Of a stretch of 47,876 bases of DNA, positions 7,787 through 43,596 are shown one piece after another. A program made the translations under genes and the position numbers. The DNA is from Chthoniobacterales bacterium. Its GTDB lineage: Bacteria; Verrucomicrobiota; Verrucomicrobiia; Chthoniobacterales; UBA10450. Positions within the stretch are counted from its first letter, which is position 1; every line of letters begins with the position of its first letter. The notes under the pieces were generated by a model. It did not search any database and was not told where the DNA came from. It saw nothing but the letters and a program-made list of their open reading frames with translations. The stretch is from assembly GCA_003244145.1 (NCBI GenBank), contig QHBM01000119.1:1-47876 (forward strand), in the 5' to 3' direction.

Positions 7787-8986
7787 ATGGCCGGCCTCGT
7801 CATAAAACCTCGCGCCCGAATTTTGCACGGACATGACTGGGTCTTTTCCGGCGAGGTACTCAAGGCGTTCGGTAACCCCATGGATGGCGACGTTATCTCG
7901 CTGAAGGATGGGAGAGATCACCTGATCGGCAGCGCGATTTATAACAGCAAATCGCAGATCGTGGCCCGGCGTTTTTCCCGGCGACGACAGGACCTCGACC
8001 TCGATTTTTTCCAGCGCCGGATCGCGCAAGCCGTGGAGTATCGGAAACGGCGCGGGGTCGATCTGCGTCTTTGCCGCCTGGTTTGGAGCGAGAGCGATGG
8101 GTTGCCGGGCGTGATTGTCGATCGCTATGGGGATCATGCGGTCCTGCAAACGTTGACGCTTGCGATGGACCAGCGGAAGGCGCTGATCGTGGAAGCGTTG
8201 AAAGCGACGGGCGAATTGTCGGCCCTGCATTCGATCATCGAGCGGAACGATGCGCCGGTGCGGCGCGCGGAAGGGATGGAGTTGCATACTGGCGTGTTGA
8301 TGGGCGAGGCGCCGAGCGGACCGATCGTCATCGAAATAAATCGGACGCCACAAAGGACGCCCCTCCAGTTGGAGATCGATTTGATGCATGCGCAGAAGAC
8401 CGGATTTTATCTGGATCAACTGGGGCATTACGGAACCGTGGCCCGTTACGCGCGGGACCGGAGCGTGCTCGATTGTTTCACGAGCCAGGGCGCGTTCGCG
8501 CTCGCGTGCGCGCGGGCGGGCGCAGCGAAAGTGACCGGAGTAGAAGGAAGCGCGGAGAGCGTCGCAACCGCCCGGCGAAACGGGGAGCGCAATCAGCTCG
8601 CGGTCGAATGGATTGAGCAGGATGTTTTTCAGTTTCTGCGCGCGGCCGAAAAGGCGGAGGCGGAATACGACCTGATCATTCTCGATCCCCCTTCCTTCAC
8701 CAAAACGAAAGGCGGATTGCGCGATGCCCTGCGCGGGTATCGCGAATTGCACGTGCGCGCGTTCAAGCTCCTTTCGCGCGACGGAATCCTCGCCACGTTC
8801 TCCTGCTCGCATCATGTGAGCGAAACGGTTTTCAACCAGACGATCGCGGATGCGCTGGTCGATGTGCGCCGATCGGCGCGCCGGTTGCATCGGTTCGAGC
8901 AGGCGCTCGATCATCCGGTCTTGCCGACATTGCCGGAGACAGAATATTTCAAAGGGTTGCTGCTGGAAATGATGCCGGGTAGATGA
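7787..8986 (+). CDS. rlmI: 23S rRNA m5C1962 methyltransferase RlmI-type
   Basis: SAM-dependent methyltransferase modifying a cytosine C5 in large-subunit rRNA. The 399-aa layout is standard: an N-terminal PUA-like RNA-binding domain (about 1-80, KPRARILHGHDWVFSGEV), a central domain with SESDGLPGVIVDRYGD, then the Rossmann methyltransferase with SAM motif I LDCFTSQGAFALACARAG (about 227-244) and the catalytic-site ILDPPSFTK. The late TFSCSHHV holds the family Cys. It diverges from purC across a GGTGA-rich repeat. The name is given at family level; the exact target base is known from E. coli only. Confidence 0.9.
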   Translation: MAGLVIKPRARILHGHDWVFSGEVLKAFGNPMDGDVISLKDGRDHLIGSAIYNSKSQIVARRFSRRRQDLDLDFFQRRIAQAVEYRKRRGVDLRLCRLVWSESDGLPGVIVDRYGDHAVLQTLTLAMDQRKALIVEALKATGELSALHSIIERNDAPVRRAEGMELHTGVLMGEAPSGPIVIEINRTPQRTPLQLEIDLMHAQKTGFYLDQLGHYGTVARYARDRSVLDCFTSQGAFALACARAGAAKVTGVEGSAESVATARRNGERNQLAVEWIEQDVFQFLRAAEKAEAEYDLIILDPPSFTKTKGGLRDALRGYRELHVRAFKLLSRDGILATFSCSHHVSETVFNQTIADALVDVRRSARRLHRFEQALDHPVLPTLPETEYFKGLLLEMMPGR

Positions 8987-37788: not shown

Positions 37789-40700
37789 TCAGGCAGCTGA
37801 TCGTCGCTCCTTCACCTTCAACACCTCGCGCAAGAATGGCGACGTCCGGCTGATCCGGCTCTTTGCCACTTCTTCCGGCGTGCCGGTCGCAACGATTTCG
37901 CCGCCCTCGGCGCCGGCTTCCGGTCCAATATCCACCAGGTAATCCGCTTCGGCGATGATGCTGAGATTGTGCTCGATCACAATCACGGTGTTGCCTTCAT
38001 CCACCAGCCGGTGCAGTACCTTCAAGAGCAACTCCACGTCCGCCATGTGCAAACCAATCGTCGGTTCTTCCAGCAAATAGAGCGTCGATTTCGGCTTGCG
38101 CATTTTCCGAATCCGCTCGTTTTGCGCGCGACCGATTCCGCGGGTCAGTTCCGTCACGAGCTTCAATCGCTGCGCTTCTCCGCCGCTCAAGGTCGGACTC
38201 GGCTGGCCCAACTTCAGATATCCCAGGCCGGTATCGACCAGGAGCGAAAGCGGGCGCGCGATCTTTTGGTTCGTGGCAAAAAACGTCGCGGCCTGTTCGA
38301 TCGTCATCTCCATGACGTCGCCGATGCTCTTGTCGTTGTAGAGGACCTCGAGCGTCTGCGGATTGTAACGGCGCCCGCCGCAATCCTCGCACGGCACATA
38401 ACTGCTCGGCAGAAAACTCATCTCCAGCTTGATCGCGCCCTGGCCACTGCACGCTTCGCAACGGCCGCCTTCCGTGTTGAACGAGAAACGGCTGGGCGAA
38501 TAACCGCGCACGCGCGAGACCGGCAGTTGCCCGTAGAGCTTCCGGATTTCGTCGAAGACTTTGATGTAAGTCGCCGGCGTGGAGCGCGAGGTCTTCCCGA
38601 TCGGCGACTGGTCCACTTCGTACACCGTCTCAAATGAATCAGCGCCGCTGATCGAGGAGAACAATTCGCGCTGTTTTGCCGGATGTTTTTTTAAACGTTC
38701 CTTCACCGCCGGCAGTAAAACGGAACGCATCAGGGTCGATTTGCCCGAGCCGGATATCCCGGTAATGACCGAGAGCCGGCCCACCGGAAAACGCGCATCG
38801 ACATTTTTGAGATTGTGGGCGTGCGCGCCGCGAATTTCGATCCACTGCTCGACCTCGCCTAACGAACGCCGCGTCTTTCGCGTGGGATGGCACAAGGGAT
38901 TCTTCAGGCAACGGCTCGTCTCCGAGCTCTTGTGCGCTTCGATATCGCGCAGCGTCCCTTGCACCACCACCTCGCCTCCGTGCATTCCCGCGCCCGGACC
39001 GAGATCGATGATGTGATCGGCGCGGCGCATCGTCTCCTCGTCGTGCTCGACGATCACGAGCGAGTTTCCCTTCTCGCGCAAAGCCGTCAGCGTTTCGAGC
39101 AGCCGGAGATTGTCGCGCGGATGCAGGCCGATCGTCGGTTCATCGAGAACGTAAAGAACACCGCGCAGATTCGAACCGAGTTGCGCGGCGAGACGAATGC
39201 GCTGGGATTCGCCGCCGCTCAGCGTTTTCGCCGAACGTCCCAGCGCGAGATAACCGAGCCCGACGTTCTCCATGAAACGAAGGCGTTGCGAAATTTCCGG
39301 CACAAGATCGTCGGCCACCACCTTTTGGTTCCCGCGAAACCGAAGTTTGCCGATCAACTGCTCCGCTTCTCCGGCGGAGAGCGCCGTGAAACTGTCGATA
39401 GTCTGATTTTGCAGCCGCACGTGCCGCGCGATTGGATTCAAACGCGATCCATGGCAGGCCGGACACGGCACCGCTTCCCCTTCATCTATCCATTCCGATT
39501 CCCGCTCCGCCGCCAGCTCGTTTTCCAGGACGGAATCGCCGGTGTCCTCCGTGCCGGTCTGCTTGGCGGCATTCCAAATCTCACCGAAGCCGCCGCACTC
39601 TCCGCACGCGCCGTGCGGCGAATTGAATGAAAACAAACGCGGATCGAGCTCCTCGAACGCGCGGCCGCAACCCGGACAACTCATCTCGGTGCTCATGACC
39701 GTGACCCGATGTTTCGCGTCGAGCAGGTGCGCCGTGCCGCGTCCGATGTCGAGCGCGCGCTGGACGAGGTTGCGCGCTTTCAGGATTCGCTTCGCGTCGA
39801 TCGCGCCGACCACAACATCGATAGTGTGCTCCTTGAAGCGCTCCAGTTTTCGGAACTGCGCGATCGGCAACAGATATCCATCGACGAAAAGTGTGTCGAA
39901 TCCCTGCCGCTCGGCCCAGCGCGCGACATCGGTGTGAAATCCTTTGCGCGCTTTGACGAGTGGCGCGAGCACCTTGAGCGGGCCGCGCTTCACCGCGGTC
40001 TCGAGTTGGCGGACGATCGCGGCCAAACTTTGTTTTTCGACCGGCAGATCGCAATCGGGACAGAACTGCGTCCCAGTTTTCGCGAACAGAAGGCGCAGAA
40101 AATGGTAAACCTCGGTCACGGTCGCGACCGTTGATTTCCCGCCGCCACGGGTGACGCGCTGTTCGATCGCAACGCTTGGCGGCACGCCTTCGACGAGATC
40201 GACGTCCGGTTTCTCGAGTTGCTCGACGAATTGCCGCGCGTAGGGCGACATGCTGTCGAGAAAACGGCGCTGCCCTTCCGCGAAAAGAATATCGAACGCG
40301 ACGGTCGATTTTCCGGAGCCACTGAGGCCGGTGATGATGACCATCTGGTCGCGCGGAATATCGAGCGAAATGTTTTTCAAATTGTGCTCTCGCGCGCCGT
40401 GAATGCGAATGGCGTTGTTTCGGTTTCTGGGGAGCGCAGGCAGCCTGCCGGGCGGCTCTTCGGCGGCGCGCAATGCGAGATCGGAATCGTCCAGCTCATA
40501 ACCGCGCGCGCGAACGGCCCCGAAAGCCTTCGGGGCGCTCCCCTTCAACAAGCCGCGCAGGAATTGTCCGGTGTGTGACGCGTCAATTTTCGCAACGGCT
40601 TCCGGCGTGCCCGCCACGACCAGTTCTCCGCCTTCGTCGCCCGCTTCCGGTCCGAGGTCGATCACCCAATCGGCGCACTTCACGACTTCGAGATTGTGCT

Positions 40701-43596
40701 CGATCACGACAATCGTGTTGCCCGCCTGGACCAGCCGCTGGAAGAGTCGCATTAGAATCGCGACATCGTCGAAGTGCAATCCGGTCGTCGGCTCGTCGAA
40801 GATGAAGAGATTCCCGGCAGACGATCCATTCTCCCGGCCTTTTTCGTCGGCCAGATGCCGGACCAGTTTCAGCCGCTGCGATTCGCCGCCGGAGAGAGTG
40901 TTAAGCGGCTGGCCCAAACGCAGGTAACCGAGGCCGACTTCATCCAGAACGTCGAGCTTGTCACCGAGCGTTTTCGATTCGCCGATCCGCGCGAAAAACT
41001 GGATCGCTTCGCTCACCGTCATCTCGAGAACGTCGTGGATCGACTTTCCCCAAACCTGCACGCGCAAGACGTGCGGTTGAAAGCGGCGGCCTTCGCATTC
41101 GGCGCAGCGCACGTAAAGATCGCTCAGAAATTGCATCTCGATCTTCTCGAACCCGGTGCCGCAGCAACGTTCGCAACGGCCACTGCCCGAGTTAAAAGAA
41201 AAGGCACTCGCCGTCAGGCCTTGCGCCATCGCTTCCGGCTGCGCCGCGAACAGCTCGCGGACGCGATCGTAAAGTCCGAGATAAAGAATCGGCGTTGAAC
41301 GCGGGGTGCGCGCGAGCATCGACTGATCGACCATGACCACGTCGCCGATGCGATGCGCGCCGGTGACCGATTTGCACGCGCCCGGCTCCTGCTCGCTCGG
41401 TTGTCCCTTGGCCTGGAGCAGATTCCGGTAGAGGACATCGTGAATTAGCGTCGATTTTCCCGACCCGGAAACGCCGGTGACGCAGTTGAAGATCCCGAGC
41501 GGGATTTCGACGTCGATGTTCTTGAGATTGTGCTCGCGGGCGCCGGTGATCCGGATGGACGCGGTCGATTTCCGGCGCGACTTCGGGACGGGAATCGATT
41601 TTCGTCGGGCGAGATAATCCGCGGTTAGCGATCGGGGAGCGCACGCCTGCGGCGTGCTGGTTGCCGCATTTTGCGGCAACGAACTTTTCCGCGAAGGCTG
41701 TGGGTTATCAGACGCGCGTAAATCTTTCCAGGCGGAAGGAAAAGTTCGCGAAGGTGGAACACCTTCGCCAGCACGCTGCAAGCGTGCGCTCCCCAGCATT
41801 TTCTCCAGCGTTCCTTCGAAGACCAGCTCGCCGCCGTACTCGCCGCGGCCGGGACCGATGTCGATGAGGTGATCGGACGAGCGGATGATCGCTTCCTCGT
41901 GCTCTACCACCAGCAACGTGTTCCCCTTGTCGCGCAATTCATGCATCACGCGTACGAGCCGGCCGACATCCCGCGGATGCAGGCCCACGCTCGGTTCGTC
42001 CATGACGAAGAGCGTGTTCACCAGCGACGCGCCCAGACAGGTCGTGAGATTGACTCGCTGGACTTCGCCGCCGCTGAGCGTTCGGGTGGAACGGTCGAGC
42101 GTGAGATAGCCCAACCCGACTTCGCAAAGATAGCGGAGCCTCGCCACGACTTCGCCCCGCAACATTTCCGCAGTCGAGTCGTTAGGCGGTAGAACCAGCC
42201 CGGCGAAAACTTTCCGCGCCTCCCCGACCGAGAGCATCGCGATCTCCGGCAAGGTCCGCGCGGCCTCTCGTGTTCCGTTGGCCGCGGGCGAGACAATTCG
42301 ATAGTTGAGTGTCTCGGGCTGAAAGCGCCCGCCCTTACAATCAGGACAGGTCGTGTAGGCGCGATAGCGGCTGAGCAAAACGCGCACGTGCATTTTGTAG
42401 GTCTTGCTTTCGAGCCATTTGAAAAATCCGCGCACGCCATACCAGCGATCGTTTTCCGCCAGCTCCTCGACATCGGTGTCCTCGTCGCGTGCTTCTCCGT
42501 TGATGACGAAATCCTGATCGGCTTTCGGCAAGTCCTCGAACGGCGTCCGCACATCGATTTCTTCCCGTGCGCACGCACGCATGAGATCGCGCTGCGATTC
42601 CCCCATCTCTTCGCCACGAAAAACACGGACTGCGCCCTGTGCGATCGAAAGCGAACGGTCGGGGATTGCCTTGTTCAGATCGATCGCGATGGTCCGGCCA
42701 AATCCGCGACACGTCGGACACGCCCCGAGCGGATTGTTGAAACTGAAAAGCCCGGGCGTCGGTGGACGAATATCGAGATCGCAATGCGCGCAATGCCAGC
42801 CGGTGGAGAAAGGCGATTCCTTTTTCGTCTCGAGATTGACGAAATTGATGCGGTCCTTGCCGAACCGCAGCGCGGTCTCGATCGACTCGACCAGGCGCGC
42901 CCGCGTTTCTTCTCCGATCGTCAGGCGATCCTGAATGACCTGCACCCGCGCTCCCAGGCGGCCGACTTTCTTGTCGGTATCGGCACGGACAACTTCGCCA
43001 TTCAACCAGACGCGGAGATAACCTTGCTGTTGGAGAAATTGAAAAAATTCGCGCGGATCGGTCTTGGCCGGGACGCCGACCCAGAAGGTGAGCAGGACTG
43101 TTTCGCCGGCGAACTCACGCAGCACGTCGTCCGCAATGGAGCGCGCAGTCTCCGGGCGGATCTCGCGGCCGCAGCTCGGGCAGAAAGAGCGCGCGATCCG
43201 CGGCATGAGCAGCTTCACGTAATCGTTGATCTCGGTCATGGTGCCGACGGTCGAACGCGAACTTTTCACCGGGTTGGCCTGCTCGATCGCGATGGCGGGC
43301 GGAATGCCGCGAATTTCATCGACGCGCGGTTTGTCCATGCGGTCGAGGAATTGCCGCATGTAGGGGCTGAACGTTTCGACGTAACGGCGCTGGCCTTCGG
43401 CGTAGATCGTGTCGAAGGCGAGACTCGATTTGCCGCTGCCGCTCGGGCCGGTGATGACAGTCAACTTCCCGAGCGGGAGATCGAGATCGATGCCTTTGAG
43501 ATTGTTCTGGCGGGCACCGCGAATCTCGACGCAGTCAGTGTGCGTCGAGTCAGGAGGCGCGGTAACGCAAGATTTTTCGGCGATCGTTGAACCCAC
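37789..43596 (-). CDS. uvrA: Double-length excinuclease ABC subunit A (two fused UvrA units)
   Basis: Damage-recognition ATPase of nucleotide excision repair. At 1935 aa it is twice the usual length: unit 1 (about 22-1015) and unit 2 (about 1058-1935) are each a full UvrA. Four Walker A motifs are seen (GPSGSGKS at 50, GVSGSGKST near 707, GLSGSGKST near 1090, GISGSGKST near 1613), with four LSGGE signatures and zinc-binding Cys pairs in each unit. The fourth Walker B reads LLEEPTIGLH, with Glu in place of the first Asp. Similar tandem UvrA proteins are known from Chlamydiae and related phyla. Two linkers (about 601-654 and 1018-1056) are encoded by palindromic repeats in frame. GTG start; pckG lies upstream. 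Confidence 0.95.
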   Translation of the reverse strand: MGSTIAEKSCVTAPPDSTHTDCVEIRGARQNNLKGIDLDLPLGKLTVITGPSGSGKSSLAFDTIYAEGQRRYVETFSPYMRQFLDRMDKPRVDEIRGIPPAIAIEQANPVKSSRSTVGTMTEINDYVKLLMPRIARSFCPSCGREIRPETARSIADDVLREFAGETVLLTFWVGVPAKTDPREFFQFLQQQGYLRVWLNGEVVRADTDKKVGRLGARVQVIQDRLTIGEETRARLVESIETALRFGKDRINFVNLETKKESPFSTGWHCAHCDLDIRPPTPGLFSFNNPLGACPTCRGFGRTIAIDLNKAIPDRSLSIAQGAVRVFRGEEMGESQRDLMRACAREEIDVRTPFEDLPKADQDFVINGEARDEDTDVEELAENDRWYGVRGFFKWLESKTYKMHVRVLLSRYRAYTTCPDCKGGRFQPETLNYRIVSPAANGTREAARTLPEIAMLSVGEARKVFAGLVLPPNDSTAEMLRGEVVARLRYLCEVGLGYLTLDRSTRTLSGGEVQRVNLTTCLGASLVNTLFVMDEPSVGLHPRDVGRLVRVMHELRDKGNTLLVVEHEEAIIRSSDHLIDIGPGRGEYGGELVFEGTLEKMLGSARLQRAGEGVPPSRTFPSAWKDLRASDNPQPSRKSSLPQNAATSTPQACAPRSLTADYLARRKSIPVPKSRRKSTASIRITGAREHNLKNIDVEIPLGIFNCVTGVSGSGKSTLIHDVLYRNLLQAKGQPSEQEPGACKSVTGAHRIGDVVMVDQSMLARTPRSTPILYLGLYDRVRELFAAQPEAMAQGLTASAFSFNSGSGRCERCCGTGFEKIEMQFLSDLYVRCAECEGRRFQPHVLRVQVWGKSIHDVLEMTVSEAIQFFARIGESKTLGDKLDVLDEVGLGYLRLGQPLNTLSGGESQRLKLVRHLADEKGRENGSSAGNLFIFDEPTTGLHFDDVAILMRLFQRLVQAGNTIVVIEHNLEVVKCADWVIDLGPEAGDEGGELVVAGTPEAVAKIDASHTGQFLRGLLKGSAPKAFGAVRARGYELDDSDLALRAAEEPPGRLPALPRNRNNAIRIHGAREHNLKNISLDIPRDQMVIITGLSGSGKSTVAFDILFAEGQRRFLDSMSPYARQFVEQLEKPDVDLVEGVPPSVAIEQRVTRGGGKSTVATVTEVYHFLRLLFAKTGTQFCPDCDLPVEKQSLAAIVRQLETAVKRGPLKVLAPLVKARKGFHTDVARWAERQGFDTLFVDGYLLPIAQFRKLERFKEHTIDVVVGAIDAKRILKARNLVQRALDIGRGTAHLLDAKHRVTVMSTEMSCPGCGRAFEELDPRLFSFNSPHGACGECGGFGEIWNAAKQTGTEDTGDSVLENELAAERESEWIDEGEAVPCPACHGSRLNPIARHVRLQNQTIDSFTALSAGEAEQLIGKLRFRGNQKVVADDLVPEISQRLRFMENVGLGYLALGRSAKTLSGGESQRIRLAAQLGSNLRGVLYVLDEPTIGLHPRDNLRLLETLTALREKGNSLVIVEHDEETMRRADHIIDLGPGAGMHGGEVVVQGTLRDIEAHKSSETSRCLKNPLCHPTRKTRRSLGEVEQWIEIRGAHAHNLKNVDARFPVGRLSVITGISGSGKSTLMRSVLLPAVKERLKKHPAKQRELFSSISGADSFETVYEVDQSPIGKTSRSTPATYIKVFDEIRKLYGQLPVSRVRGYSPSRFSFNTEGGRCEACSGQGAIKLEMSFLPSSYVPCEDCGGRRYNPQTLEVLYNDKSIGDVMEMTIEQAATFFATNQKIARPLSLLVDTGLGYLKLGQPSPTLSGGEAQRLKLVTELTRGIGRAQNERIRKMRKPKSTLYLLEEPTIGLHMADVELLLKVLHRLVDEGNTVIVIEHNLSIIAEADYLVDIGPEAGAEGGEIVATGTPEEVAKSRISRTSPFLREVLKVKERRSAA
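40429..40543. repeat. GGGGAGCGC-tipped palindromic element in frame in uvrA (C2)
   Basis: Tips GGGGAGCGC (40429) and GCGCTCCCC (ending 40543). It contains the hairpins CAGGC-A-GCCTG near the left and CCCCGAA-AGCC-TTCGGGG near the right. It encodes about 39 residues in the linker joining the two UvrA units, rich in Ala, Arg and Pro. The tips match the other uvrA element at 41634-41794. Confidence 0.78.
41634..41794. repeat. GGGGAGCGCACGC-tipped palindromic element in frame in uvrA (C1)
   Basis: A nested structure of about 161 bp. Tips GGGGAGCGCACGC and GCGTGCGCTCCCC; inner hairpins GCACGCC-TGC-GGCGTGC, GTTGCCGC-ATTT-TGCGGCAAC, CGAAGGTG-GAA-CACCTTCG and GCACGCT-TGCA-like AGCGTGC; the arms CGAACTTTTCC and GGAAAAGTTCG also pair. 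Read through in frame, it adds about 54 residues between ATPase cassettes 1 and 2 of unit 1. Confidence 0.85.

Follow-up and report, generated by a model that had tools for sequence, protein, structure and literature searches.

A REPIN-like palindrome translated within uvrA of a Chthoniobacterales bacterium, and putative REP transposases embedded in conserved enzymes of Verrucomicrobiota

The 47,876-nucleotide stretch of contig QHBM01000119.1 of a Chthoniobacterales bacterium (UBA10450; assembly GCA_003244145.1), hereafter the window, carries a uvrA gene with a 161-bp palindromic element inside its reading frame. The element is best read as a non-autonomous doublet of repetitive extragenic palindromes (REPs) tagged with GGAG, similar to the REP doublets forming hairpins (REPINs). 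It would have entered uvrA as mobile DNA, be translated into additional linker residues joining ABC cassettes 1 and 2, and be mobilised in trans by a REP-associated tyrosine transposase (RAYT); the probability of this reading is put at roughly 0.8.

The element begins with GGGGAGCGC exactly at 41634 and ends with GCGCTCCCC exactly at 41794. Folded as single-stranded DNA, the 161 nt reach -67.7 kcal/mol, whereas shuffled sequences average -32.9 (z = -11.0; 0 of 200 shuffles as good), and both 55-nt arms form an identical pair of hairpins, with stems of 7 and 9 bp (z = -5.1 and -4.2). The 1935-aa open reading frame (ORF) is uninterrupted by the element, which contributes about 54 residues (601-655). 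The exact tips, the fold and the ORF reading thus bear out a preliminary description of this DNA, which proposed a nested inverted repeat of about 161 bp lying in frame, and without breaking the ORF, in the linker between cassettes 1 and 2. The UvrA of the window is a tandem of two units with four ABC cassettes; both the long model PRK00635 (1809 positions) and ordinary UvrA models match it. Similarly long UvrAs are found in Chlamydia.

Copies of the element are dispersed in the genome (3.63 Mb; a fragmented assembly of 173 contigs, 88% complete). GGGGAGCGC is found 120 times and its reversed pattern 16 times, GGGKAGCGCRSGC is found 84 times and its reversal 5 times, and blastn with the 161 bp returned 89 matches, both arms and both strands being counted. 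At least 36 distinct inverted pairs of 92-165 bp were found in 68 stretches of the genome and the window, following removal of a nested duplicate (37 rows to 36) and with lone GGGGAGCGC occurrences lacking hairpins left out; this number is a lower bound because the stretches were picked from 100 of the 120 tip places and from the blastn matches. The genome search for the tip sequence suggested in the preliminary description therefore located the palindrome elsewhere. Hairpin 2 pairs at six or more of seven positions in 60 of 72 arms, comprising 34 different stems, while the mean with swapped halves is 17.5; this hairpin is kept through compensatory change among the copies. The short length, inverted termini and many copies would also suit a miniature inverted-repeat transposable element of a classical DDE-transposase insertion sequence, with terminal inverted repeats that are self-complementary by chance. 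However, each terminus consists of a tag and hairpins with compensatory stems, the same ends flank RAYT genes, as described below, and no obvious target duplication is seen by eye at the flanks (41625-41633 and 41795-41803), which makes such an origin very unlikely.

Open frames traverse most of the elements, as expected, because the arms are GC-rich. Copies within recognisable genes are located in uvrA (two pairs), dnaE2 (two doublets in a single 1105-aa frame of this error-prone DNA polymerase, L141), recG (L098) and hsdR (L106, a single REP), and all six start in the identical GSA frame. Some other open frames contain an element only a few codons from their upstream end (e.g. L096, L100, L126, L127 and L148); these elements probably precede the true start. 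All these host genes act in DNA transactions, a remark likewise made for other species in PMC3733652, where a mutator-state role of uvrA REPs is offered as speculation. Selection may accordingly keep the insert beyond mere tolerance, either because it alters UvrA, for example towards a mutator state, or because it works as an mRNA hairpin. This alternative is unlikely, since the same UvrA and dnaE2 sites of relatives contain unrelated sequences, relics or nothing, making a specific function less likely, and since embedded RAYTs also occur in metH, alaS, thrS and carB.

The evidence from relatives comes from 83 genomes of the family, 80 of which encode UvrA at E <= 1e-100; 40 loci were aligned with the window. 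Strong inverted repeats were detected in linker 1 of 12 of 39 UvrAs (two segments shorter than 30 nt being excluded), in linker 2 of 15 of 41 and in linker 3 of 6 of 41, compared with 1 of 195, 1 of 205 and 0 of 205 control windows in the same genes, respectively. Among the 19 sequences on which site types of linker 1 were judged, GGAG-type pairs with different stems are present in the window, L053 and L054, and GTAG types in L052, L056 and L058; only a tip remains in L055 and L086, and L074, L075, L079, L080 and L091 have no REP. These differing types, relics and vacant sites point to the repeated arrival, replacement or loss of REPs at this position. The phase of tips across the whole of uvrA was discarded, as the reversed-pattern control was also skewed.

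In solved UvrA structures (best chain 9gxk), cassette 1 continues into cassette 2 without a counterpart of residues 601-653. An intact ORF in a fragmented assembly would be compatible with the segment being native to UvrA or with a misassembly; yet the solved proteins lack the segment, the length of linker 1 in the 39 scored UvrAs varies between 10 and 63 aa, and REPs occupy the same place in several separate assemblies, so that this explanation is scarcely credible. As anticipated in the preliminary description for an insertion, the segment is absent or different in related UvrAs, and it is neither conserved across distant UvrAs nor confined to this one site of the genome.

A similar picture was obtained for the dnaE2 frames of seven genus mates. 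At site 1, one mate has a similar REP, three have a GSAG-type REP and one a GRVG-type REP, L295 has a short stretch only, and the site falls outside the coverage of L296. At site 2, two mates have REP-type sequences, three another palindrome-derived stretch (HPERSEAKSRDP) and two other sequence. A second, unrelated translated repeat, of the HPERSEAKRN...RDPSTALRSAQDD type, was observed in frame at other tolerant sites of the UvrA and DnaE2 proteins of relatives, namely at dnaE2 site 2 in L292, L294 and L296, and near UvrA residue 163 in L052, L054, L072, L073 and L075.

A candidate for the mobilising enzyme is encoded within recG of the same genome, where the REP of L098 encloses a RAYT in the recG frame. 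The RAYT was found through its REP, the left unit of which is 93% identical to the arm in the window. It matches NF047646 at E = 9.7e-22 with 77.4 bits (cut-off 80) and Pfam Y1_Tnp (PF01797) with a score of 19.7, below the cut-off of 23, and it contains the motifs HVH and YVMRNP. The tyrosine of the Y-x-x-x-N-P motif has a catalytic role in RAYTs. Comparison of a RAYT profile with solved structures retrieved TnpA-REP 4er8 (E = 4e-4). Three homologues of the recG RAYT were counted in this genome, one of them among the matches listed, and the recG copy is the only transposase found here with matching REP ends. The RAYT-like genes L019, L020 and L021, detected with PF01797, were set aside, having no exact GGGGAGCGC within 1.5 kb on each side and only matches with one mismatch. 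L019 and L020 (G000:C49) encode longer RAYT-like proteins in open frames of 310 and 368 aa that are separated by about 3 kb.

With the RAYT reading in the recG frame, the cell probably produces the transposase within a RecG-RAYT protein. An AlphaFold2 model of such a protein, built on 21 sequences (mean pLDDT 65.4), has a moderately confident RAYT region at about 425-520, and pLDDT is below 50 on either side of it, at 364-424 and 562-594, stretches that include REP-coded parts.

Homologues of the RAYT are present at E <= 1e-5 in 80 of the 83 family genomes. At E <= 1e-29, 72 matches were listed (ORF L193 being counted twice), of which 63 are in open frames longer than 300 aa and nine in frames of 211-271 aa. 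Pfam analysis of seven RAYT ORFs identified surrounding host domains of RecG, MetH (two different linkers), AlaRS, ThrRS and, twice, CarB; Y1_Tnp itself exceeds the cut-off in five of the seven, is just below it in CarB L192, and is unlisted in ThrRS L187, where the RAYT was recognised by alignment. The motif HVH is conserved in 44 of 50 aligned rows (one locus entered twice), with another HxH in five and neither in one, and YxxxNP in 47. The metH frame L193 (G065:C150) contains two RAYT matches, at its cut start and before the activation domain, and L205-L209 form a deep, separate RAYT clade in the CarB frame, sharing about 40-43% identity with the recG copy across about 100 residues.

A peptide-pattern scan of contigs from named genomes, in which the best 80 of 138 candidates were kept, yielded 79 RAYT loci, all labelled with verrucomicrobial groups except L249 (Kiritimatiellaeota) and L279 ('bacterium' only). 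The RAYT is in a long frame at 73 of these 79 loci and in a short frame at six, a share that may overstate the embedded fraction because only the best 80 of 138 candidates were kept and the peptide patterns came from an alignment mostly of embedded copies (14 of 15). The hosts of the 73, labelled from short peptide motifs (Pfam being applied to the seven family ORFs), are recG (33), alaS (19, and one probable, L285), metH (10), thrS (6) and carB (1), with three lacking an assigned host.

Eighteen of the 79 loci had no recognisable RAYT core and were dropped from the analyses of flanks and phase, leaving 61. Inverted flanking repeats (score >= 14) surround 53 of the 61; combining each core with the flanks of other hosts still gives 19 of 61, a high control value caused by the resemblance of REPs to each other. 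The left tip was found at 53 of the 61 loci and is in a single codon phase in 52 of them. Between this tip and the core there is no ATG, GTG or TTG in 26 of the 53 loci, and ATG occurs in only three. The phase of the right tip around embedded RAYTs is mixed (40, 10 and 7). In five short-frame copies, the frame spans from outside the left REP across both REP ends.

RAYTs group according to their host gene: mapping of host genes onto the RAYT tree required 10 changes (49 rows, one duplicate having been removed), compared with 23.6 for shuffled labels, and 0 of 200 shuffles were as low. For 26 of the 33 recG loci, the median dN/dS (ratio of nonsynonymous to synonymous divergence) is 0.22 in the embedded RAYT and 0.12 in RecG, and the dS values of the two parts are nearly equal (ratio 0.95); these figures derive from 55 non-independent pairs with 0.2 < dS < 1.8. 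The dN/dS of 0.22 and the dS ratio indicate that the RAYT in recG is evidently an old, co-inherited component under purifying selection. In the genus of the window, by contrast, recG frames differ in length, reaching 900-989 aa in G020, G021, G022 and G025 but 695-715 aa in G023, G024 and G026.

In the proposed mechanism, the RAYT would mobilise the element in trans as a single-strand transposase of the HUH/tyrosine kind that recognises REP hairpins, the hairpins most likely being cut and joined as single strands. Copies arriving in frame in flexible linkers would survive, and inserts such as the one in uvrA may persist through the tolerance of these linkers, the lack of a stop codon in the used frame and the polar nature of the encoded peptide (GSARxxRAGDGVPPS-like frame).

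Several observations weigh against mobilisation of a REPIN-like doublet by the RAYT. The tag beside the hairpin is GGAG rather than the canonical GTAG, and is outside the GTAG-superfamily variants quoted from PMC3733652; since the REP tips around RAYTs read GGGGAG, GGGTAG or GGGTGG, it looks like a variant of a GTAG-superfamily unit. Covariation in hairpin 1 is barely above the control (68 versus 62.6 of 72 arms), this hairpin varying too little. The right REP of the recG RAYT is cut by the contig end, with 21 matching bases present. The data contain no near-identical empty site, the empty sites belonging to other species. A second, eroded REP pair in the same uvrA (element 2) shows no significance in its whole-length fold (z = -1.39; 16 of 200 shuffles as good). 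REP density speaks for the link, as it tracks the presence of this RAYT: the 49 genomes that have it show 16.5 REPs per Mb and the 34 that lack it 3.4, with a p value (1.3e-9, n = 83) made optimistic by the relatedness of the genomes. There are nine exceptions at the limits used, five genomes exceeding 8 REPs per Mb without this RAYT and four with it having fewer than 4 per Mb.

In a broader interpretation, which is held with less assurance although somewhat favoured, Verrucomicrobiota would harbour a class of read-through transposons, in which the RAYT lacks a stop codon, and often a start codon too, between its REP ends and forms a constrained in-frame domain of RecG, MetH, AlaRS, ThrRS or CarB. 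Such transposons would feed REPINs whose ends double as protein linkers, the UvrA and DnaE2 linkers being recurrent sites of REP-type replacement. If so, the tie to an important protein would keep the transposase expressed and make it hard to lose.

REPs inside genes were reported in 2013, including those in the two uvrA genes of Opitutus terrae, itself a verrucomicrobium (PMC3733652), so that the claim of the preliminary description that no such class had been described in this group does not stand. The intragenic GTAG REPs of PMC3733652 likewise occur as dimers in frame in verrucomicrobial uvrA, and also in error-prone polymerase genes; the element described here differs in its GGAG tag, in the two hairpins per unit, and in its length of 54 residues, where dimers usually have 20-30. 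The parts of PMC3733652 on intragenic REPs make no mention of a RAYT within a host gene, such as recG here. With the REPIN/RAYT systems presented in PMC6006769 and PMC8266576, the latter of which treats the role of the tetranucleotide, the present elements share inverted REP pairs, an HUH/tyrosine RAYT with inverted REP flanks and dispersed copies, but differ in the location of the RAYT in frame inside recG, metH, alaS, thrS or carB. The survey in PMC6006769 discarded long proteins as gene fusions or annotation errors, and the embedded RAYTs have the form that was put aside there; the REPs inside tnpA-REP genes that it describes represent a different nesting. No description of RAYTs embedded in recG, metH, alaS, thrS or carB was recognised among the papers listed in literature searches, whose coverage largely excluded subscription journals and preprints. 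On sequence evidence, what is likely new is that the probable REP transposase itself lies in frame inside conserved enzymes in many verrucomicrobial genomes, intragenic REPs being already known. If confirmed, this would explain the persistence of such elements, provide natural domain-insertion proteins to study, and make the retention of a transposase as part of a housekeeping protein directly testable.

The palindromic elements of Rickettsia (RPE), with which the element had also been compared, are likewise translated in frame in conserved genes; RPE-4 and RPE-6 are equated in PMC3733652 with CGTC-tagged repeats without association with a transposase gene. The likeness goes little further, as the element is REP/REPIN-like and linked to a RAYT, and the tags here are GGAG or GTAG; membership of the RPE or CGTC group was rejected for the uvrA element, since its tag is GGAG and not CGTC. 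Inteins likewise represent mobile DNA that is translated within the frames of conserved enzymes. Unlike an intein, the uvrA insert is expected to stay in the protein, and its 54 residues are, to our knowledge, far below the size of any known intein.

The preliminary description recognised a single element in this ORF, correctly for 41634-41794, and overlooked element 2 (40429-40543; UvrA residues 1018-1056), in which native linker sequence separates the two units. Element 2 was rejected as a single mobile unit because the relative L053 has two REPs flanking the native linker. The features of uvrA are given in Table 1.

Table 1. Positions of uvrA and of the REP-related features within it
Feature	Positions	Strand	Remarks
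Host gene uvrA	37789..43596	-	four-cassette tandem form, 1935 aa, frame intact
REPIN-like doublet	41634..41794	.	encodes UvrA residues 601-655, which join ABC cassettes 1 and 2
REP unit 1	41634..41680	+	GGGGAGC, then hairpins of 7 bp and 9 bp
Spacer separating both REP units	41681..41747	.	
REP unit 2, inverted	41748..41794	-	GGGGAGC, then hairpins of 7 bp and 9 bp
Eroded REP unit, linker between cassettes 2 and 3	40429..40451	+	relative L053 has a fuller version
Second eroded REP unit, inverted, linker between cassettes 2 and 3	40517..40543	-	tips; comparison with relatives

A lone GGGGAGCGC is also found in the window at 8582-8590, with no partner and a weak stem only, and is probably due to chance.

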